Of a stretch of DNA of 64,000 nt, positions 23,931 to 56,629 are shown one piece after another. This DNA comes from Segatella copri DSM 18205 (lineage in GTDB: Bacteria; Bacteroidota; Bacteroidia; Bacteroidales; Bacteroidaceae), in NCBI RefSeq assembly GCF_025151535.1, contig NZ_CP102288.1, positions 935,501-999,500 of the forward strand, in the 5' to 3' direction. Position 1 is the first letter of the stretch, and each line of letters begins with the position of its first letter. The position numbers and the translations under genes are program-made. The notes below the pieces were generated by a model. That model saw nothing but the letters and a program-made list of their open reading frames with translations. It was not told the DNA's origin and ran no database searches.

Positions 23931-24207
23931 AGGGCAGAAGCCCCTAGCCACACGCCCTGAAAGGGCAGAAGCTCCTAGCCCAGGGCATCGCCCTGGGTAA
24001 TTACGGACGCAAACCTGTCGCCCTGTAAGGGCAAAAGCTTTAAAACCCCAGGCAAAAATCACAAAGCTTTTGCCCTTACAGGGCGCCTTGCTGACTGCTA
24101 CTATACCCAGGGCGATGCCCTGGGCTAGGAGCTTCTGCCCTTTCAGGGCGTGCTGCTCCTGACCTTTTGGACCTTCAGCCCGTACTTGAACCACATGCAA
24201 AAGTTCA
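23931..24207. repeat. Nested-palindrome element, copy A
   Basis: A GC-rich element in AT-rich surroundings. An outer arm (ACGCCCTGAAAGGGCAGAAG, then CTCCTAGCCCAGGGCATCGC) is repeated in inverse orientation at the other end, and an inner arm around AAAGCTTTTGCCCTTACAGG is likewise inverted. Each CCCAGGGC block is itself palindromic. The left end has an extra partial duplication of the outer arm (23931-23960). The right end carries the shared tail CCCGTACTTGAACCACATGC. It sits on the 5' side of the DUF1016 fragment. Confidence 0.9.
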
Positions 24208-24302
24208 ATTATTAATTTTTAAGGCAAAGATAATAAAAAAAAGGAAAATGAGCAAAAAAATGATGATTTTTTACTCGTTTCCCTTTAACTTTCTTTGGAA
24301 AT

Positions 24303-24336
24303 CCTTAATGACCTTAATGACCATGACCTTAATGAC
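24303..24336. repeat. TCATTAAGG array a (left border of the smalltalk cassette)
   Basis: Three 9-bp CCTTAATGA units and one 6-bp CCATGA unit. Positions 24304-24336 are the exact inverse complement of 25155-25187 (array b). Confidence 0.9.
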
Positions 24337-24354
24337 TGGATTTCTCTGTTTTCT

Positions 24355-24450
24355 TTATCCCATGCAGCTCGTTACTCCGAGCGTAGTAGCGATAGCGGTC
24401 AGTATGCTGATGGCTATCTGAAGAATTGTTTTCCAAGTGTTCGCTTTCAT
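24355..24450 (-). CDS. Smalltalk protein
   Basis: A 31-residue frame from ATG 24450: MKANTWKTILQIAISILTAI, then ATTLGVTSCMG. It consists of one hydrophobic helix ending in Ser-Cys, a possible lipoprotein-like end. It matches the Bacteroidota smalltalk family, tiny conserved membrane peptides usually found between an HU-like DNA-binding protein gene and an N-acetylmuramoyl-L-alanine amidase gene. The HU-like gene is present upstream in a shortened form; the amidase is absent. The function of the family is unknown. Confidence 0.85.
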   Translation of the reverse strand: MKANTWKTILQIAISILTAIATTLGVTSCMG

Positions 24451-24547
24451 CTTTTTTGAATGTTGAATGTTGAGTGTTGAATGTTGAATTTTTTGTGGGC
24501 GGATAGGCTGGGCTAGGGGCTAGCACCCTAGCCAGTCTATCCTTGGG

Positions 24548-24805
24548 CTATTCAAGGCCGTCGCCAGTATCGTCCTTGCCGGTAGTACCGCCGCCTGATT
24601 CAGAGCCTTGGCCTTCGCTGCCGGTCTGACCGGTGTTTGAACCACCTGGGGTAGAACCGCCTGGCGTATTATACGGAGTGGTTGGAGCGTTGAGGTCAAC
24701 GTTGGTCTTACCCTCCTTCTTTGCCTGGTTGATGCGTGACTTAGCCTGGTTGATTTCCAGAAGATTTGCGTTCACGCTACGCATTACGATGCTGTAATTA
24801 ATCAT
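24548..24805 (-). CDS. Internally deleted HU-family DNA-binding protein
   Basis: 85 residues. The N-terminal 33 residues (MINYSIVMRSVNANLLEINQ, then AKSRINQAKKEGK) and the C-terminal tail (NVDLNAPTTP followed by a Gly/Ser/Thr-rich stretch ending DGLE) look like the two ends of the long HU-like proteins that precede smalltalk in Bacteroidota. The DNA-binding HU fold that should lie between them is missing. The join falls at KEGKT, a sequence that can recur before NVDLN in full-length members, which suggests deletion between short direct repeats. The frame is intact and has a promoter and leader upstream, so it may still be made. This assignment rests on recalled family sequences. Confidence 0.55.
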   Translation of the reverse strand: MINYSIVMRSVNANLLEINQAKSRINQAKKEGKTNVDLNAPTTPYNTPGGSTPGGSNTGQTGSEGQGSESGGGTTGKDDTGDGLE

Positions 24806-24839
24806 AGTCGTTTGTAGTATGTTTAGAGTCCTTTGTTTT

Positions 24840-25028
24840 GCAACTCCCCAGAACGCCCCGTTCCTGCCGTTTTCGAGGTCTTCATTGATGACCGGCGCCT
24901 GCCATCATTTATGACCCGTGTTGGTCTTAATAGAAGACCCGAGCAAGGCACAAAAGGCTGTTCTTTCGATTGCCGGTGCAAAGATACAACATTTTCGGGC
25001 AGAATGCAAGCTTTCACCCTGACTTTCT
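24840..25028 (-). promoter_or_regulatory. Conserved 189-bp promoter-leader, copy 1
   Basis: On the minus strand TATCTTTG (24986-24979), with CTTG 20 bp upstream, forms a promoter. The following leader (about 130 nt inside the repeat) contains hairpin GGTCTT-CTATT-AAGACC and a TGATG/CATCA stem. The whole block is 96% identical (8 differences) to 48763-48951. It ends 34 bp before the HU-like ORF start. Confidence 0.75.
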
Positions 25029-25153
25029 ATGCTGAAAATGACGTAAGTAGCTGATAGATAATACTTTCTATCGTTTTCTATCAGAACTTTATTGCAGAAA
25101 CATAGCAAAACAGGAAAATACGCATTGAAGGTAGCCGAAGAAACGTGAAAAGC

Positions 25154-25187
25154 GGTCATTAAGGTCATGGTCATTAAGGTCATTAAG
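25154..25187. repeat. TCATTAAGG array b
   Basis: Units GGTCATTAAGGTCATGGTCA and onward. 33 bp are perfectly inverse to array a, including the CATGG variant. Together a and b enclose the smalltalk, HU-like and leader block. Confidence 0.9.
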
Positions 25188-25212
25188 CACTTTTCGCTCG
25201 CTCTCTTTTCTT

Positions 25213-25248
25213 ATAATATAATATTAAATAATTTTAATATTATATTAT
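25213..25248. repeat. AT-only perfect palindrome, locus 1
   Basis: 16-bp arms (25213-25228 and 25233-25248) made only of A and T, with a 4-nt loop. It sits midway between arrays b and c. Confidence 0.85.
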
Positions 25249-25273
25249 ATATATATTCCGTTCCCCCCGAAAC

Positions 25274-25308
25274 CCTTAATGACCTTAATGACCTTGACCT
25301 TAATGACC
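25274..25308. repeat. TCATTAAGG array c
   Basis: Inverse orientation to b, with the variant CCTTGACC. It is the exact inverse complement of array d over 34 bp. Confidence 0.9.
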
Positions 25309-25416
25309 GGGGAACACCAGTTTTTGAATGTTTGTTTGTGGTATAAATACTTTACATTTGCAAAATGAGTATTGGGAGGATGCTTATAGGTGTTGAGTTG
25401 ATAATATGTCATTTTG

Positions 25417-25450
25417 GGTCATTAAGGTCAAGGTCATTAAGGTCATTAAG
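25417..25450. repeat. TCATTAAGG array d
   Basis: Exact 34-bp inverse of array c, with the CAAGG variant. The 108 bp between c and d hold no gene or recognised signal. Confidence 0.9.
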
Positions 25451-26265: not shown

Positions 26266-27756
26266 TTAATCGTTGGTGTGGCGCAAGAGGAAGATGCTGT
26301 GGTCGATGCACTCTGGCAATTCTTCCTTATAATGCGTTACCATGATCATGGTTTTGTTCTGGCGGCGACAGAAGGCTTCGATGACGTCTTTTACAAGACG
26401 GCGGTTGCGGTTATCGAGTCCGTGGAGCGGCTCATCGAGAATCAGCAGTTCCGGATCCTTGACAAAGGCTCGTGCCAGGAGAACGAGGCGCTGTTCGCCG
26501 CTGGAGAGCTTCAGGAAACCACGGTCTTCAAGACCTTCCAGTCCGAAGACTTTCATCCAGAAACGGCACTTGTCCATATCTTCTTCCTTTGGCTTTACAT
26601 AGAGGCCTACGGAATCCATCAGACCGCTTGCTACGATGCGGATGGCTGGCAGGTCGCGCTGGTAAGAGCGGTGAAGCTCAGGCGATACGTAGCCGATGTG
26701 CTTCTTGATGTCCCAGATGCTTTCGCCGCTGCCTCGAGGATTGTCGAAGAGGGTGATGTCGCAGGCGTAACTCTGCGGATTGTCGGCACAAACCAGACTG
26801 AGAAGTGTACTCTTTCCGGCTCCGTTCTGTCCGCTCAAAGCCCATCGCTCGCCGTTCATCACGGTCCAGTCGAGGTCGTTGAGGATGATTCGCTCGCCAT
26901 ACTGTATGCGTACCTTGTTCATCTTCACCACTTCCTGGGTGTGATATTCGCGGTCGCTGTAAGGCTGGTCTACGATGGCCTGTTCCATCTCGGGGCTCAA
27001 CACATGGGCAGGTACGGATTCTCTGCCGGCAAGATATTCGGCGAGGGTTACCTTAGGCAGAACCTTCATATCCTTCACTTCTACCACGTGGGTGATGAAA
27101 TCGGGAATATCATCGCTCTTGCTCAGTACGAGGATAATCTGCAGGGCTCGTTCTGAAGAGAGGGTCTTGAGCAGTTCCTTGAGCTGGTCGCGGGTTTCAG
27201 CATCGAGTCCGATAAACGGATTGTCCATGATGAGCACGCGAGGCTCTGAGAAGAGGGTAGAGGCAAGTTTGAACTTGCGGAGCTCGCCACTTGAGAGCAG
27301 GATGGTGTATTTGTCCATCAGGTGCTGCATGTGGAAGAGCTCGTAGATGTGCTGCTGCAGGGCTCTGCGCTCCGGTGTGTCTTCGCCAGCCATCTGGTAG
27401 GCTTCTTCCAGCTTGTCCTTTACGATAGGCGTGTTCTCGTCTATCTCGAGCTGGTTCCAGCGCTGCTGCAGGAAATAAGTGCGGTCGTTATCGCCTCCGT
27501 AAGTGTCGCGGAAGGTAATATACTTGATGTTGTCGCTCACCATTGTTTTCTGACTAGGTGAGAAATCGTAATCAGGGTCGTGCATCAGGAGTGGGTGGCG
27601 ACCTACGATGATGTCGACAAACATTGATTTTCCTCCACCGTTCGGACCTACGATAGCGATGTGTTCACCATCGCACGCCTCGAAGTTTACGGGTTCTGCC
27701 ATACGCCATTCTGGCATACGGGTAACACCATTTTTAATGCTAATAATCTTTTGCAT
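26266..27756 (-). CDS. Double ABC ATPase (ModF/PhrA-like)
   Basis: 496 residues with two ABC nucleotide-binding domains in one chain and no membrane helix. Walker A motifs are GPNGGGKS (near residue 37) and SGQNGAGKS (near 310). Signature-like motifs are LLSSGELRKFKLA and LSSGEQRLVLLARAFV, and Walker B motifs are VLIMDNPFIGLD (Asn in place of the catalytic Glu) and LLILDEPLHGLD. The first site is therefore probably weak and the second active, as in many twin-domain ABC proteins. The layout resembles ModF/PhrA. A role in molybdenum handling or repair cannot be inferred here. It lies 5 bp after ruvC. Confidence 0.82.
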   Translation of the reverse strand: MQKIISIKNGVTRMPEWRMAEPVNFEACDGEHIAIVGPNGGGKSMFVDIIVGRHPLLMHDPDYDFSPSQKTMVSDNIKYITFRDTYGGDNDRTYFLQQRWNQLEIDENTPIVKDKLEEAYQMAGEDTPERRALQQHIYELFHMQHLMDKYTILLSSGELRKFKLASTLFSEPRVLIMDNPFIGLDAETRDQLKELLKTLSSERALQIILVLSKSDDIPDFITHVVEVKDMKVLPKVTLAEYLAGRESVPAHVLSPEMEQAIVDQPYSDREYHTQEVVKMNKVRIQYGERIILNDLDWTVMNGERWALSGQNGAGKSTLLSLVCADNPQSYACDITLFDNPRGSGESIWDIKKHIGYVSPELHRSYQRDLPAIRIVASGLMDSVGLYVKPKEEDMDKCRFWMKVFGLEGLEDRGFLKLSSGEQRLVLLARAFVKDPELLILDEPLHGLDNRNRRLVKDVIEAFCRRQNKTMIMVTHYKEELPECIDHSIFLLRHTND

Positions 27757-31445: not shown

Positions 31446-31692
31446 CTCAAGTTTCGCAAGTGAGCTCCACACGCCCTGAAAGGGCAGAAGCTCCTAGCCC
31501 AGGGCATCGCCCTGGGTAATCATGGACGCAAGTTTGTCGCCCTGAAAGGGCAAAAGCTTTCAAGTACCAGGCAATTTACAAAGCTTTTGCCCTTACAGGG
31601 CGCATTGCTGACTGCCATTATACCCAGGGCGATGCCCTGGGCTAAGAGCTTTTGGGCCTTCAGCCCGTACTTGAACCACGTGCGAAAGTTCA
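31446..31692. repeat. Nested-palindrome element, copy B
   Basis: About 247 bp between panB and the MFS gene. The left end CTCAAGTTTCGCAAG and the right end GTGCGAAAGTTCA are imperfect inverted termini. The inside has outer and inner inverted arms and palindromic CCCAGGGC blocks. It is bordered by the 8-bp direct repeat GTAAGAGA (31438-31445 and 31693-31700), as expected for a target-site duplication. Confidence 0.9.
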
Positions 31693-38455: not shown

Positions 38456-38619
38456 ACTGAACTTTCGCATATCAGGAAGTTAAAGGAGTTAAGGAAGTTA
38501 AGGAGTTAAGACGTATGTCTTGCTGCTTAAAAACAACGCCAAAAAGACTGTTGTCTTAACTCCTCAGCGACCGTAGGGAGCGATAACTCCTTTAACTTCT
38601 GAGCTTGCGAAACTTGAAT
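38456..38619. repeat. Second repeat family, copy 1 (in the Bat operon)
   Basis: The left end ACTGAACTTTCGCATATC and the right end GAGCTTGCGAAACTTGAAT are imperfect inverted termini. Inside, GAAGTTAAAGGAGTTA pairs with TAACTCCTTTAACTTC and AAGGAGTTAAGAC pairs with GTCTTAACTCCT. A near-identical copy is at 44115-44288. The ends match those of the nested-palindrome family. Confidence 0.9.
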
Positions 38620-44114: not shown

Positions 44115-44288
44115 ACTGAACTTTCGCATATCAGGAAGTTAAAGGAGTTAAGGAAGTTAAGGAGTTAAGACTTATGTCTTGCTGCTTAAAAAACTACGCC
44201 AAAAAGACTGTTGTCTTAACTCCTCAGCGACCGTAGGGAGCGATAACTCCTTTAACTCCTTTAACTTCTGAGCTTGCGAAACTTGAAT
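44115..44288. repeat. Second repeat family, copy 2
   Basis: Nearly identical to 38456-38619, with the same ends and inner inverted arms plus one extra CTCCTTTAA unit on the right side. It lies between queA and the ABC-F gene. Confidence 0.9.
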
Positions 44289-44301: not shown

Positions 44302-46284
44302 ATGATTTCAGTAGAAGGACTGAAAGTAGAGTTTGGCGTCAAGCCTCTCTTTCATGATGTAAGTTTCGTCATCAACGACCGCGACCGCATTGCCCTGGTG
44401 GGTAAGAATGGTGCCGGAAAATCTACGATGCTCAAGATTCTCTGCGGTTTGCAGAAACCTACTGCTGGCGTTGTGGCTATTCCTAACGAAACCACTATCG
44501 GCTATCTACCACAGGTGATGAAACTGCAGGACGATACGACCGTGAAAGAGGAAACCCGCAAGGCTTTCGCCCATAATACCGAGATGAAGGCGCGTCTGGA
44601 CAAGATGCAGCAGGAAATGGCCGACCGCACCGACTATGAGAGCGAAAGCTATGCTCAGCTCGTAGAGCAGTTTACTCAGGAACATGAACGCTACATGATG
44701 ATGGGTGGCGAAAACTATGAGGCTGAGATAGAGCGCACCTTGAGCGGTCTTGGCTTTACGCGCGATGATTTCGAGCGCCCAACCAAGGAGTTCTCTGGTG
44801 GTTGGCGAATGCGTATCGAACTTGCCAAGATTCTGTTGCAGAAGCCTGATGTACTGCTTCTCGATGAGCCTACCAACCACCTTGATATTGAAAGTATCCA
44901 GTGGTTGGAGCAGTTCCTGGCGCAGAGTGCCAAGGCTGTGGTTCTGGTGAGCCACGACCGTGCTTTCATCAACAATGTAACTAACCGTACCCTCGAAATT
45001 ACTTGCGGAAGGGTAGAAGACTATAAGGTGAAATACGATGAGTATGTGGTGTTGCGTGCTGAACGCCGCGAGCAGCAGCTCCGTGCTTACGAAAACCAGC
45101 AGAAGGAAATTGCCGACATCAAGGATTTCATCGAGCGGTTCCGCTACAAGCCTACCAAGGCGGTTCAGGTGCAGAGCAGAATCAAGCAGCTCGAGAAAAT
45201 CGTGCCTATCGAGGTGGATGAGGTTGACAACAAACAGATGCACCTCAAATTCCCTCCTTGTCTCAGGAGTGGCGATTATCCTATCATCTGTGATGAGGTG
45301 CGCAAAGATTACGGTGCACACACCGTCTTCGACCATGTTACCTTTACCATCAAGCGTGGCGAGAAGGTGGCTTTCGTGGGTAAGAACGGCGAGGGTAAGT
45401 CTACCCTGGTAAAATGTATCATGGGTGAGATTCCTTTCACCGGAACTCTCAAGATTGGTCATAATGTGCAGATTGGTTATTTCGCCCAGAATCAGGCGCA
45501 GCTCTTGGATGAGAATCTTACCATCTTCCAGACTATCGACAATGTGGCAACAGGCGAAATGCGTCTGAAGGTGAACGATCTCCTGGGCGCCTTCATGTTT
45601 GGCGGCGAGACTTCTGAGAAGTTTGTCAAGGTTCTGAGTGGAGGCGAACGCAGCCGACTGGCTATGATCAAGCTCCTGCTCGAACCGGTGAATCTCCTCA
45701 TTCTCGATGAGCCTACCAATCACCTCGACATGCAGTCGAAGGATGTGCTGAAAGAAGCCATCAAGGCTTTCGATGGAACAGCCATCATCGTGAGCCACGA
45801 CCGTGAATTCCTCGATGGTCTGGTAGATAAGGTCTATGAGTTTGGTGGCGGCAAGGTTCGTGAGCATCTTGGTGGTATTTACGATTATCTCCGTGCCCAT
45901 AATGCCGAGAACATCAATCAGGCTCTTGCCAACCAGAACATGGCTTCTGCCGGTTCGCCTTCTGCCAATACTTCCGGCTCTTCTGTCGCATCAGGTTCTA
46001 CAGCCGACAGTCTTGCCTCTGCCACATCCGGCAAGCAGAGCTACGCTGAACATAAGGAACAGCAGAAGAAGATCCGCAAGGCTGAGAAAGCCGTGAAGGA
46101 ATGTGAGGCGAAGATAGAGAAGCTGGAAGCGAGAAAGAAGGAGATTGATGAACTCCTGATGAAACCGGAAAATGCAACCAACATGGAACTCGTGACCGAA
46201 TACACCGAACTCATGAAGAGTCTCGATGAGGAGAACGAGCGCTGGATGCTCCTTTCGGAAGAACTGGAAGAAGTTTCGAAATAA
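44302..46284 (+). CDS. ABC-F family ATPase
   Basis: 660 residues with two ABC domains in one soluble chain: Walker A GKNGAGKS and GKNGEGKS, signatures FSGGWRMR and LSGGERSR, and Walker B LLLDEPTNHLD and LILDEPTNHLD, the hallmark of ABC-F. The interdomain linker carries the basic RFRYKPTKAVQVQSRIKQLE. A Ser/Ala-rich spacer leads into a C-terminal coiled coil (about residues 585-660). ABC-F proteins act on ribosomes as translation factors or in antibiotic protection; the subfamily is not assigned. A truncated paralogue lies at 48506-48726. Confidence 0.92.
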   Translation: MISVEGLKVEFGVKPLFHDVSFVINDRDRIALVGKNGAGKSTMLKILCGLQKPTAGVVAIPNETTIGYLPQVMKLQDDTTVKEETRKAFAHNTEMKARLDKMQQEMADRTDYESESYAQLVEQFTQEHERYMMMGGENYEAEIERTLSGLGFTRDDFERPTKEFSGGWRMRIELAKILLQKPDVLLLDEPTNHLDIESIQWLEQFLAQSAKAVVLVSHDRAFINNVTNRTLEITCGRVEDYKVKYDEYVVLRAERREQQLRAYENQQKEIADIKDFIERFRYKPTKAVQVQSRIKQLEKIVPIEVDEVDNKQMHLKFPPCLRSGDYPIICDEVRKDYGAHTVFDHVTFTIKRGEKVAFVGKNGEGKSTLVKCIMGEIPFTGTLKIGHNVQIGYFAQNQAQLLDENLTIFQTIDNVATGEMRLKVNDLLGAFMFGGETSEKFVKVLSGGERSRLAMIKLLLEPVNLLILDEPTNHLDMQSKDVLKEAIKAFDGTAIIVSHDREFLDGLVDKVYEFGGGKVREHLGGIYDYLRAHNAENINQALANQNMASAGSPSANTSGSSVASGSTADSLASATSGKQSYAEHKEQQKKIRKAEKAVKECEAKIEKLEARKKEIDELLMKPENATNMELVTEYTELMKSLDEENERWMLLSEELEEVSK

Positions 46285-46316: not shown

Positions 46317-48350
46317 ATGAAAATGAAAATGATCTTACCGATGATGCTGATCGCAGCTCTGCCATTAGGCGCTGATGCTCAGAATAAATCGGGTCTTGTC
46401 ATGAGCAATCTCGACAAGACAGTGAAGCCAGCAGACAGTTTCTATCAGTTTGCTACAGGTGGATGGCAGAAGAACAATCCTCTTCCTGCCGCTTACAGCC
46501 GTTATGGCAGTTTTGACCAGCTGGCTGAGAACAACAACAAGCGCATCAACACCATTCTTTCTGAACTCCAGAAGAAGACTTACAAGGCTGGAACCATTGA
46601 GCAGAAATTGTCTGATTTCTACAAACTCTCTATGGATGTTGACAGCCGCAACAAGGCTGGAATCGCTCCAGTAAAGCCTCTGTTGGATGAGATTGAAGCT
46701 GCCAAGACCAAGGACGAGCTTCAGAAGCTTCAGGTTAAGTATGCATGGATGGGTCTTGGTTTGGGCTATGTCTCAGGTTTCGATGCCGATGAGAAGAACG
46801 TAACCATGAACATCTACATCCTGATGCAGGGCGGTCTTACTCTCGGTGCCAAGGATTATTACCTCAACAACGATGCTGCAACTGTAGCTATCCGTGAGGC
46901 TTATAAGACTTACCTCAGCAAGATGTTCCAGCTCTATGGTTTCTCTGCTGATGAAGCTGCCAAGAAGGCTTCTGCCGTATTCCTTCACGAAACAACGCTC
47001 GCTACTTTCTCAAAGAGCCGTACCGAACTTCGTGATCCTCAGGCCAACTACAACAAGATGACCTTGGCAGAATTCAAGGAGAATTATCCTAACATTCCTC
47101 TCGAGGCACTTGCCAACGCCGAGGGAATCAAGAGCGAATATCTCAAGGAGATGATCGTAGGTCAGCCTGCTTTCTTCGCCGGTTATGACAAGGTGGCAGC
47201 TGCAGAATGTGCAGGCACATTGAAGGCTTTGATGGAGTGGGACATCATCAGTAGTTCTGCTTCTTACCTCAGCGATGAGATTCGCGAAGCCCGTTTCGAA
47301 TTCTTCGGCAAGACTATGAGTGGCCGTAAGGAGGATTATCCTCTTTGGAAGCGCGCTACTACTCAGGTAGAGGCTCAGTTGGGCGAGGCACTCGGTCGCA
47401 TCTACTGCAAGCGCTATTTCCCAGAAAGCTCTAAGAAGATGATGGAGACACTCGTGAAGAATCTTCAGATCAGTCTCGGTCAGCGTATCGATGCTCAGAC
47501 CTGGATGAGCGATGTAACAAAGAAAGCTGCTCACAACAAGCTCGACAAGTTCTATGTAAAGATTGGTTATCCTAACAAGTGGACTGATTTCAGCAAGCTC
47601 AGCATTGACCCATCTAAGAGCTATTATGAGAACGTATTGGCTTGCCGCAAGTTTGCCAACGATAAGGAGATTGCAAAGAAGGCAGGAAAGCCAGTAGATA
47701 AGGATGTGTGGTACATGACTCCTCAGACCGTGAACGCTTACTATAATCCTACTACCAATGAGATCTGCTTCCCAGCAGGTATTCTCCAGTATCCTTTCTT
47801 CGATCCTAAGGCTGATGCTGCATTCAACTATGGTGCTATCGGCGTAGTAATCGGTCATGAGATGACTCACGGATTCGATGATCAGGGTCGTCAGTATGAT
47901 GCTAGCGGTAATCTGAAGGACTGGTGGACTCCTGCTGATGCAGAAGGTTTCAACAAGCGTGCTGATATGTATGCTGATTTCTTCAGCAACATCAAGGTGT
48001 TGCCTGATCTGAATGCCAACGGCCGTTTCACCCTCGGCGAGAACCTTGCCGACCATGGTGGTTTGATGGTTTCATACAATGCCTTCAAGAATGCTACAGC
48101 CAAGAAGCCATTGAAGAACAAGGATGGTTTCACTCCTGACCAGCGTTTCTTCCTCGCCTATGCAGGTGTTTGGGGACAGAACATTACTGATAAGGAAATC
48201 CGCAACCGCGTAAAGAATGATCCTCATTCTCTCGGCAAGTGGCGTGTTGATGGTGCGCTTCCTCACATCGATGCATGGTATGAGGCATTTGGTGTAAAGC
48301 AGGGCGACAAGCTGTTCATTCCTAAGAACCAGCGCCTGGAGCTTTGGTAA
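46317..48350 (+). CDS. M13-family zinc endopeptidase PepO
   Basis: 677 residues with a signal peptide (MILPMMLIAALPLGADAQ), so it is secreted or periplasmic. The M13 (neprilysin) signature VIGHEMTHGFDDQGRQYD supplies the HExxH zinc ligands. The third ligand Glu and a conserved Asp follow in LGENLADHGGL, and VNAYYNPTTNEICFPAGILQ is the substrate-binding segment. The C-terminus ends in a short Leu-Trp, near the CxxW position of the family but without the Cys. It probably degrades small peptides. Confidence 0.93.
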   Translation: MKMKMILPMMLIAALPLGADAQNKSGLVMSNLDKTVKPADSFYQFATGGWQKNNPLPAAYSRYGSFDQLAENNNKRINTILSELQKKTYKAGTIEQKLSDFYKLSMDVDSRNKAGIAPVKPLLDEIEAAKTKDELQKLQVKYAWMGLGLGYVSGFDADEKNVTMNIYILMQGGLTLGAKDYYLNNDAATVAIREAYKTYLSKMFQLYGFSADEAAKKASAVFLHETTLATFSKSRTELRDPQANYNKMTLAEFKENYPNIPLEALANAEGIKSEYLKEMIVGQPAFFAGYDKVAAAECAGTLKALMEWDIISSSASYLSDEIREARFEFFGKTMSGRKEDYPLWKRATTQVEAQLGEALGRIYCKRYFPESSKKMMETLVKNLQISLGQRIDAQTWMSDVTKKAAHNKLDKFYVKIGYPNKWTDFSKLSIDPSKSYYENVLACRKFANDKEIAKKAGKPVDKDVWYMTPQTVNAYYNPTTNEICFPAGILQYPFFDPKADAAFNYGAIGVVIGHEMTHGFDDQGRQYDASGNLKDWWTPADAEGFNKRADMYADFFSNIKVLPDLNANGRFTLGENLADHGGLMVSYNAFKNATAKKPLKNKDGFTPDQRFFLAYAGVWGQNITDKEIRNRVKNDPHSLGKWRVDGALPHIDAWYEAFGVKQGDKLFIPKNQRLELW

Positions 48351-48417
48351 TTCCGGAAGGAAATTTTTCCGAATAGAATTTTTCGGGAATGGTTTTTCCG
48401 AATAGATAGAAAAAATA

Positions 48418-48458
48418 AAGTCCTGATGTTTCGTTTGTTTGAAACATCAGGACTTTTT
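48418..48458. terminator. Terminator after pepO
   Basis: AAAGTCCTGATGTTTC pairs with GAAACATCAGGACTTT, followed by TTTTG and preceded by an A-rich run, so usable from both sides. Confidence 0.85.
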
Positions 48459-48505
48459 GTTTTATGCTTGAAATATTTTTGATAAGAAAACAATAGAATA
48501 GGGAG

Positions 48506-48726
48506 TTATTGCTTCTTCTCCAGTTCCTGAAGATTTTCCATCTTCTTAGATTCCAGGAATTCGTAGTAGCATTTCTCACACCGGCGATGATCTTGAGCAA
48601 TGTGCTCTTTCCTGCGCCATTCTTTCCCATCAGGGCTATACGGTCCTTCTCGTTGATCTGGAAGGAAATGTCTTTGAATAGGGTGGTGCCGCCAAATTCT
48701 ACGGTCAATCCATCAACTGTAATCAT
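48506..48726 (-). pseudogene. ABC-F ATPase remnant
   Basis: The start (MITVDGLTVEFGGTTLFKDI) through Walker A GKNGAGKSTLLKIIAG matches an ABC-F N-terminus. After about 48 codons the sequence changes frame into CYYEFLESKKMENLQELEKK and a TAA, which resembles the end of an ABC-F protein. About 550 codons are missing between. The remnant still has a promoter-leader at the normal distance upstream. Confidence 0.8.
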
Positions 48727-48762
48727 ATTATTTTCTTCTTGTTCAAATTTTTGTTTCTTTAA

Positions 48763-48951
48763 GCAACTCCCCAGAATGCCCCGTTCCTGCCGTTTTCGGG
48801 GTCTTCATTGATGACCAGCGCCTGCCATCATTTATGACCTGTGTTGGTCTTAAGAGAAGACCGGAGCAAGGCACAAAAGGCTGTTCTTTCGATTGCCGGT
48901 GCAAAGATACAACATTTTTGGGCAGAATGCAAGCTTTTACCCTGACTTTCT
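48763..48951 (-). promoter_or_regulatory. Conserved 189-bp promoter-leader, copy 2
   Basis: Same length and 96% identical to 24840-25028, with TATCTTTG at 48909-48902 and the hairpin GGTCTT-CTCTT-AAGACC preserved although the loop differs. It ends 36 bp before the ATG of the ABC-F remnant. Confidence 0.75.
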
Positions 48952-49060
48952 TTCGGAGAAGTAGTGTAAGTGATTGATTGATAATGATTTCTATTGGTTT
49001 TCTAGCTGAACTTTGTTACAGAACAATCTAATGGTAAGGTGTAAGGATAAAAAGCCAGCG

Positions 49061-49095
49061 TGTCATTAAGGGTCAGTGTCATTAAGGGTCATTTA
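49061..49095. repeat. TCATTAAGGG array e
   Basis: A locus-2 version of the array with 10-bp units (GTCATTAAGG followed by GTCAGT and again GTCATTAAGG), inverse to array f with two differences. Confidence 0.85.
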
Positions 49096-49119
49096 GAAAA
49101 ATGAAAGTGTCATTTTGAG

Positions 49120-49159
49120 CTATAGTATATATAAATATTTATTTATATATATACTATAG
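49120..49159. repeat. AT-rich palindrome, locus 2
   Basis: CTATAGTATATATAAATA is inverse to the right arm except for one extra TA. It lies between arrays e and f, as the locus-1 palindrome lies between b and c. Confidence 0.85.
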
Positions 49160-49185
49160 GGGATTTTTCTCCCCCGAAAATGAAA

Positions 49186-49216
49186 ATGACCCTTAATGAC
49201 CTTGACCCTTAATGAC
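49186..49216. repeat. TCATTAAGGG array f
   Basis: Inverse partner of array e, with the 10-bp unit CCCTTAATGA and the short unit CCTTGA. Confidence 0.85.
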
Positions 49217-49673
49217 ACCCTAGATGAACTTGTGAGTTTTACCAGATATAGGTTGTGTGTATTCCTGAATGTATTGGTTATTAGTGTATTATGTGTATTT
49301 TGTTATATTTCTACTCTAATGTTCTGTGTATAATAATTATCTACATATTAAGTCACTTAAGTTAGCTATTATACTGTTCAATTCTGCATTTTTATCCTTG
49401 TTTTATGTTGCTTTTGTTAAAAATATATCATCTCAGAGGCTGTTTTTATGTCCGAGGAGGGGCATTTTTCACCCTTTGTAGAGGGGGGAAAACACCTTTC
49501 TACCCCTCATATTTTGCATTTTTTCTTCGAAATCTCACTAAAAAGCACTGATTTTTGCCTCTTTTGGTTTCTGTTTTGGGTAGGTAAGGATAATTTACAT
49601 TACTCAGTCTGATTGCGCTTCTTGCTCCGTTTCTTTTAGCGGATTAAAAATCCATAATAGTTCGATCTGTATG
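49217..49673. other. AT-rich intergenic stretch without a recognisable gene
   Basis: No credible frame on either strand. The only structure I see is around 49454-49508, where GAGGAGGGGC and similar G-runs face CTACCCCTC, giving a weak inverted repeat. Confidence 0.6.
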
Positions 49674-49911
49674 GTTGAAATTACCCAATACGCCCTGAAA
49701 GGGCAGAAGCTCATAGCCCAGGGCATCGCCCTGGGTAATTATGAACGCAAACCCATCGCCCTGTAAGGGCAAAAGCTTTAAAGAACCAAGCAATAAACAA
49801 AGCTTTTGCCCTTACAGGGCGTCTTATTGATTGCTATTATACCCAGGGCGATGCCCTGGGCTAAGAGCTTTTGGGCTTTCAGCCCGTCTTATACCACATG
49901 TGAATGTTCTG
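49674..49911. repeat. Nested-palindrome element, copy C
   Basis: All inner blocks are present (outer arm, CCCAGGGC palindromes, inner AAAGCTTTTGCCC arm), but both terminal sequences are degraded compared with copies B and D, so it looks like an older copy. Confidence 0.88.
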
Positions 49912-56365: not shown

Positions 56366-56380
56366 TTTTTTTTGTAAAGT

Positions 56381-56629
56381 ACTCAAATTTAGCAAGTAAG
56401 CCCCACACGCCCTGAAAGGGCAGAAGCTCCTAGCCCAGGGCATCGCCCTGGGTGTTTATGGACGCAAACCTGTCGCCCTGTAAGGGCAAAAGCTTTCAAA
56501 TATGGCAATATACAAAGCTTTTGCCCTTACAGGGCGCCTTGCTGATTGCCATTAAACCCAGGGCGGTGCCCTGGGCTAGGAGCTTTTGGGCCTTCAGCCC
56601 GTACTTGGACCACATGCGCACGTTCAGTA
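56381..56629. repeat. Nested-palindrome element, copy D
   Basis: Full-length copy with left end ACTCAAATTTAGCAAG and right end CATGCGCACGTTCAG, plus all inner blocks. The borders carry GTAAAGTA (left) and GTAAAGAA (right), an imperfect direct repeat at the same position as the perfect one around copy B. Confidence 0.9.

Follow-up and report, generated by a model that had tools for sequence, protein, structure and literature searches.

HU-family proteins bind four-way DNA junctions (PMC5683647). In Escherichia coli the hupA promoter overlaps an inverted repeat that is capable of forming a cruciform, and in Porphyromonas gingivalis the HU protein PG0121 binds both Holliday-junction DNA and DNA that includes the 77-bp inverted repeat ahead of its operon; the authors considered that it might either stabilise or prevent extrusion (PMC3969353). 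Polymerase template switching homogenises the arms of inverted repeats and inverts their spacers (PMC8604942).

The locus described here, in a window of 64,000 nucleotides of Segatella copri DSM 18205 (the whole stretch of DNA that was analysed), resembles hupA and PG0121 in having a long inverted repeat in the promoter region of an HU-type operon. Inverted repeats at HU promoters are already known; what is new is a recurring hairpin that is tied to HU/smalltalk operons and conserved in build, not in letters. No such element was found among the titles and abstract openings of the open literature on smalltalk, HU-HIG, Prevotella copri palindromes, and Bacteroides invertible promoters or inverted repeats with HU, and the term 'smalltalk protein' was met there only as a table entry. 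For smalltalk and HU-HIG the family library gives only 'smalltalk protein' and 'unknown function' as descriptions.

The smalltalk locus and its four arrays

The initial annotation had described two exactly inverted 33-bp arrays around a block with smalltalk, a shortened HU-like gene and a leader, and this description holds. A script confirmed that 24304-24336 and 25155-25187 are reverse complements without a single mismatch, all three features lie between the arrays, and the variant base is real (CATGG in A1 and A2, CAAGG in A3 and A4). Four near-identical arrays of the 9-bp unit GGTCATTAA are present (Table 1), and the sole difference between the pairs is the central variable base, which on the GGTCATTAA strand is T in A1 and A2 and A in A3 and A4. 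Because A3 and A4 differ at this one base, the 'perfect pair' A1/A2 is one pairing among four; A3 and A4 are a second inverted pair, without the long AT palindrome. The arrays recur in the window far above chance expectation: the 20-mer CCTTAATGACCTTAATGACC with at most 3 mismatches gave 4 matches, compared with 0 in 100 shuffles. An array common to the whole genus was ruled out, since the GGTCATTAA pattern was found in just 2 of 60 genomes, one of them that of the window.

Single GGTCAT arrays also occur at gene ends with no nearby cassette (genome positions 475072, 1111228 and 1290030). Coding sequence can take in arrays, as at L158 (genome 1290030), where an open frame runs through a GGTCATTAAGG array, which supplies its C-terminal end (...NHPVIKDKVIKVIKDSETSQS). 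By eye, the single array 3' of smalltalk at L046, L047, L048, L236 and L300, as well as the one at genome 1111228, precedes a different repeated promoter/leader-like unit, TTTTTTGTATTTTTGCAGATATAT...GGCGCAT.

The smalltalk protein of the block belongs to the smalltalk family (NF033879/PF20096), with 49.3 bits against a curated cut-off of 24.7. The 85-aa product of the HU-like gene gave no HU-HIG (PF18291) match in the family search and is not counted as a member, whereas its paralogues with the same ends have 221-224 aa and keep the HU domain; the HU-HIG domain was found in the full-length paralogues at L047, L052, L054 and L056. In the paralogous cassettes L045, L046 and L048 the HU domain or the frame is gone, and hairpin, promoter motif, leader and smalltalk are kept. 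A1 lies beyond the smalltalk end, 70 nt before a second promoter-like TATCTTTG, and A2 is found on the promoter side of the operon. The first TATCTTTG is a TAnnTTTG motif, which we take to be a Bacteroidota promoter element, and since it separates A2 from the HU start, A2 lies upstream of the likely transcription unit.

A2 and A3 form the arms of a hairpin (35 bp, 97% complementary) with about 86-87 bp between them, and this interior contains a G-run and an AT-only palindrome. Folded as single-strand DNA, the hairpin reaches -47.1 kcal/mol versus -10.2 +/- 2.5 kcal/mol for shuffled sequences (z -14.8), and 0 of 200 shuffles were as stable. A known RNA family was rejected as an identity, as the best Rfam match at the hairpin was a microRNA precursor model with a score of 29.3 against a gathering score of 200, judged to be a chance palindrome match. 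Two further Rfam matches, to Acido-Lenti-1, fell below the gathering score and lie in another repeat. We consider it highly probable that the structural unit that matters is the A2 + A3 hairpin in the promoter region of the HU/smalltalk operon, and not the ends of the cassette.

Table 1. Positions of arrays, genes and repeats in the window.
Feature	Position	Strand	Remarks
Array A1	24303..24336	-	single unpaired array of GGTCATTAA unit, downstream of smalltalk
Array A2	25154..25187		hairpin arm (25153-25187)
Array A3	25275..25308		hairpin arm (25275-25309)
Array A4	25417..25450	-	perfectly inverted to A3 over 34 nt
Hairpin element, 157 bp	25153..25309	-	arms A3 and A2
AT-only palindrome, hairpin centre	25212..25249	.	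17-bp arms, 4-nt loop
TAnnTTTG promoter motif TATCTTTG	24979..24986	-	166 nt downstream of hairpin
Leader, promoter to HU-like gene	24806..24978	-	retained in paralogues
HU-like gene remnant, 85 aa	24548..24805	-	HU domain deleted in frame between AAGGAGGGYAAGACC direct repeats
smalltalk, 31 aa	24355..24450	-	NF033879, E 3e-13
Second promoter-like TATCTTTG	24225..24232	-	
Decayed cassette	48322..49218	-	hairpin at 49060-49218
Gene resembled by fragment in decayed cassette	44302..46284		
Second hairpin family, AGGAAGTTAAAGGAGTTA arms	38460..38615, 44119..44284		between genes
Third family, CGCCCTGAAAGGGCAGAAGC...	23946..24157, 31471..31668, 49687..49890, 56380..56629		nested palindromes, ~200 bp

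Hairpins of one build at other smalltalk loci

The genome consists of one contig of 3.33 Mb with 18 smalltalk matches, and all 18 places were fetched. By reading, hairpins of the same build precede 13 of the 18 smalltalk genes (L040, L045-L050 and L052-L057). The shared build has arms of 26-39 nt composed of near-tandem units of mostly 7-9 nt, a loop of 86-163 nt and an AT-rich palindromic centre. TAnnTTTG follows 114-213 nt after the hairpin at 11 of these 13 loci, while L049 and L053 have no such motif within 450 nt of it. The arms are of GGTCATTAA-type at six loci, of TATTCAG-type at three, ATTTCAGTTATTACAG at two, and TGTGACAGT and AAAATAACA at one each; the AAAATAACA locus, L053, has a GC stretch in the centre and no clean AT palindrome. 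Hairpins of one build thus occupy equivalent places while their letters vary, which is our core finding and suggests that the shape of the hairpin matters more than its sequence; the matched arms are in part a search criterion, as the hairpins were sought by complementarity.

Five of the 18 loci (L041-L044 and L051) do not have this build. L041 and L043 have other inverted arrays and L042 has another palindrome family. Around the HU-smalltalk locus L041, at about genome position 308760, another array type (CTGTGTAATCTGTGGG, TCACAGATTTACACAGAT) is found in both orientations. Among five HU-HIG genes without smalltalk, one of them with a partial upstream side, no hairpin with an AT palindrome of at least 8 bp was found. 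A conserved replication island with DUF3987 was rejected, since a gene of this kind lies within 5 kb of only one of the 18 smalltalk loci (1481971, near 1486464).

A fixed detector (arms of at least 22 nt, identity of at least 0.85, AT palindrome of at least 8 bp) was run on the smalltalk loci and on a background of 160 tiles (2.3 kb each) taken from 400 kb of sequence distributed across the genome. It found hairpins at 12/18 smalltalk loci versus 3/160 tiles (Fisher p 5e-12, a value that overstates the case because the paralogues are not independent), and with a palindrome of at least 10 bp these counts became 9/18 versus 1/160. Two of the three background matches (L170 and L181) are decayed cassettes with hairpin, promoter and leader and no full HU gene. 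At the third, L173, the hairpin precedes a gene that presumably encodes pyruvate phosphate dikinase.

The window itself contains a decayed cassette at 48322-49218, with hairpin, promoter and no full HU gene, in which the leader stands directly before the 5' fragment of a gene that we take to be ABC-F-like. The fragment resembles another gene of the window (Table 1), and as it lies directly behind promoter and leader, the promoter unit may drive it. Two further repeat families are present in the window. Hairpins of the AGGAAGTTAAAGGAGTTA type have similar counterparts in L043, L172, L180 and a Segatella copri DSM 18205 plasmid, and further copies of the CGCCCTGAAAGGGCAGAAGC family were found in the sampled genome stretches; it is the 23946 copy of this family that contains a sub-threshold Acido-Lenti-1 match.

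A search for the promoter/leader pattern gave matches in 39 of 398 genomes. A hairpin lies upstream at all 10 pattern sites of the own genome (G000) and at 5/5 sites in G042, and outside these two genomes at one of the 38 sites scanned (39 were listed). This single match, L284 in G329, has TAGTACATT arms and a 19-bp AT palindrome. It is followed by an intact HU-HIG gene, whose 178-aa product matches PF18291 (E 9e-14), and by a DUF6486/smalltalk gene encoding 33 aa (PF20096, E 6e-13). Smalltalk matches in relatives numbered 37, and 35 were scanned (29 with longer flanks and 6 on short stretches). With the stricter detector, 2 of the 29 had a hairpin; with a laxer one, 3 of the 29 had the build (L231 and L235 in G152, L227 in G158), with the new arm sequences AAGTCTCGGTCTC in G152 and GCCTTACAG in G158. 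None of the six short-stretch loci had a hairpin. Eight different arm sequences were thereby seen in five genomes, the own and four others.

Carriage on plasmid or phage was set aside as an explanation, since the matches came from one plasmid record (over 38 bp) and five unverified 'Bacteriophage sp.' contigs. In the partial sequences of four of these contigs no hairpin was detected, L301 having had a first look only; the record of L300 starts inside the HU gene and lacks the upstream side.

Boundaries of the block and turnover of the hairpin

The initial annotation had further suggested that the 885-bp block, with its long matched inverted ends, may be mobile or able to invert, or that the arrays bind a protein acting on the cassette, and that other smalltalk loci should be compared for the same flanking arrays. 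Inverted arrays do recur at these loci, though there they form the opposing arms of a single hairpin that lies on the upstream side of the promoter. The exact match with its common variant base and the several cassette copies with 81-97% identity to the window would fit a mobile unit, and so would the course of homology in some pairs. We aligned nine cassettes and two decayed ones, with positions given relative to smalltalk. Window and L154 are well conserved from -661 to +93 (the window hairpin itself aligns weakly, at 78-82%). On the window copy this stretch stops 47 nt inward of A2 (-741 to -707) and leaves about 14-17 nt to A1 (+110 to +144). The homology of L160/L164 ends at +236, the end of the array, and that of L155/L164 stops in the downstream array at +229. 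Yet the latter pair is continuous from -1464 onwards, across the upstream hairpin, and L154/L156 share two homologous stretches, one spanning the hairpin (-1647 to -287) and one spanning the downstream array (+246 to +550). L155/L156 align from -73 to +414, and in both pairs with L156 the homology continues beyond the downstream array, reaching at least +428. Homology blocks thus end near or in an array in some pairs and cross the arrays in others. No clean empty site was found; synteny with L299 (G042), L068, L069 and L071 stops at 26282-26288.

Other observations also speak against a mobile or invertible block. At L047 and L048 the array behind smalltalk matches A2 with a score of 33, the same as A1 does, but reaches only 23 and 26, respectively, against the upstream right arm of its own locus. 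The central variable base differs between strains, being A at L047 versus C at the apparent orthologue L300, and C at 1111228 versus T at L303 (L300 and L303 are unverified contigs from human faeces, with orthology apparent by place). A GGTCAT array is found 3' of smalltalk at 7 of 19 loci (the 18 own loci and L236 of G042), in one orientation in all seven. No transposase or recombinase family was matched by the three block ORFs covered by the family search, the smaller ORFs of the block lying outside it. At L052 the upstream hairpin is of the TATTCAG class and the downstream array of the GGTCAT class.

A mobile or invertible 885-bp block is therefore not supported, and we regard it as very improbable. 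Judging from the alignments, the arrays do not bound a fixed unit, and they may sometimes lie at recombination points. The exact match of A1 and A2 could instead be a product of near-identical dispersed arrays, because the L047 and L048 arrays match A2 equally well and the variant base varies. As part of the overall explanation given below, and with the same confidence just short of even, we take A1 to be an array on its own, matching A2 perfectly because both descend from the same repeats and not because the two act together.

Inversion was seen once, and it concerned the ~86-bp hairpin interior and not the cassette. Against the seven other class-1 interiors, the interior of L181 scores 55-114 when reversed and 5-13 when direct; for its apparent orthologue L237 (G042) the corresponding ranges are 31-95 and 11-22. 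The window interior was outside this detector-based scoring and has, by eye, its G-run on the same side as the seven. The spacing from hairpin to promoter is 162 nt in L181 and 159 nt in L237, compared with 114-158 nt in other class-1 loci. We infer that inversion between inverted arrays did happen, that it affected the hairpin interior, and that one event explains both L181 and L237.

The arms have changed as well. L181 and L237 differ at 8 arm columns where both arms changed and still pair, and at 1 other column; L236 versus L237 gave 9 paired changes and 0 otherwise. The signal is weaker in other pairs (paired/other: L046/WIN 1/2, L046/L047 6/5, L046/L236 1/2, L181/L046 1/1, L280/L278 1/2 and WIN/L047 4/4, WIN being the window), and two pairs had no change. 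As the overall count is 31 paired columns versus 17 otherwise, over ten pairs with members in common, coupling of the arms is clear in some pairs only. Both paired arm changes and spacer inversion, as expected from template switching, were thus found, the former clear in some pairs and the latter as one inferred event.

Candidate mechanism, alternatives and known systems

The best overall explanation, in our opinion, is a cruciform-forming DNA element of the promoter region that would be read by HU-like proteins and whose arms are homogenised by template switching; we hold it tentatively, with a little less than even confidence. Selection would act on whether the DNA can extrude a cruciform when negatively supercoiled. 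HU-like proteins from intact paralogues might bind and stabilise the four-way junction or hold the cruciform back, and this action would couple the operon to supercoiling and tune its expression. At the window locus any HU action must be in trans, since the local HU domain is lost. Lying upstream of the promoter motif, the hairpin would act as DNA and not as RNA of the operon. A supercoiling-driven cruciform is thought most likely by analogy, because HU-family proteins bind four-way junctions and because of the hupA and PG0121 precedents. Template switching during replication could copy one arm onto the other, which would explain why the arms stay alike despite sequence drift, and could also flip the interior. 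The cruciform/HU mechanism taken alone is possible, but we would not call it probable. That the element is one of shape alone, with letters that drift freely, arms rebuilt by template switching, HU paralogues reading the structure as a family of supercoiling sensors and an interior that flips without loss, is a reading we find doubtful. Against the overall explanation speak that the paralogues are not independent, that 5 of the 18 own loci are without the build, that few smalltalk loci and promoter-pattern sites of other genomes have it, that HU-HIG genes without smalltalk had no such hairpin, and that two of the 13 hairpins have no TAnnTTTG nearby.

The arrays could instead be operators for one or several sequence-specific (or locus-specific) regulators of nearby promoters, with the inverted layout serving a DNA loop or paired binding. 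This alternative is real because the arms consist of repeated units and because A1 stands alone 70 nt before a promoter-like motif; a plain cruciform needs no tandem units, which keeps a sequence-specific binder in play. The near-tandem units lie 70-213 nt before promoter motifs, A1 included, and units inside one arm changed in concert from L181 to L237. On the other hand, related operons of one genome have five different unit sequences in front of them, and the block ORFs tested gave no match to a regulator family, so that we consider operators rather unlikely. A terminator, or an insulator against upstream transcription, would agree with a stable stem placed between upstream genes and the promoter. 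Yet at 9/13 loci the first ORF of at least 120 aa on the upstream side runs in the opposite direction (mechanical ORF calls, up to 1.5 kb away), and often there is no obvious incoming transcript; such a role therefore does not look general and appears improbable.

REPIN/BIME and MITE hairpins are short, intergenic and present in many copies. Short mobile hairpins of a MITE-like or REPIN-like kind, carried by chance on a multiplying cassette, might account for the long-armed hairpins dispersed over the genome (13 within the sampled 400 kb) and for the single GGTCAT arrays without a nearby cassette. However, AT-palindrome hairpins are rare off cassettes (1/160 tiles after setting aside the two decayed cassettes), and one mobile family would hardly give different arm sequences at the same place. 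We find this origin unlikely. The arms found here also differ from REPIN/BIME and MITE elements in that they are not palindromic REPs, vary between loci and are mostly tied to one operon type.

If the cruciform explanation is right, it would give a first regulatory handle on smalltalk/HU-HIG operons. The natural series of hairpins in one genome, diverged in sequence and kept in structure, could serve as a test bed for HU regulation through cruciforms, and as an example from natural DNA of inverted-repeat arms that turn over yet stay matched.

Among known systems, the invertible promoters of Bacteroidota, as far as they are described in titles and abstract openings, also have inverted repeats near promoters within the same phylum. 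Here, in contrast, the promoter lies outside the repeats, and only the ~86-bp interior was flipped, at one locus and its apparent orthologue. The quasipalindromes formed by template switching are alike in arm homogenisation and spacer inversion, although the inverted spacers tabulated in the available part of that report are far shorter than the ~86-bp spacer seen here (PMC8604942). Template switching is moreover a mutational process and not a regulatory element, and would explain the evolution of the hairpins but not their placement before one operon type. The E. coli hupA repeat is likewise a large inverted repeat at an HU promoter for which control by supercoiling and HU has been proposed (PMC3969353). 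Unlike hupA, the Segatella repeat does not overlap the promoter motif but precedes it, has arms of tandem units and an AT palindrome in the centre, and exists in many copies with arm sequences that vary among loci. The P. gingivalis case concerns a capsule operon at one locus, and smalltalk and variable arms are unmentioned in the available text; it is also from Bacteroidota, and its HU-like gene is co-transcribed with the operon behind the 77-bp repeat (PMC3969353).
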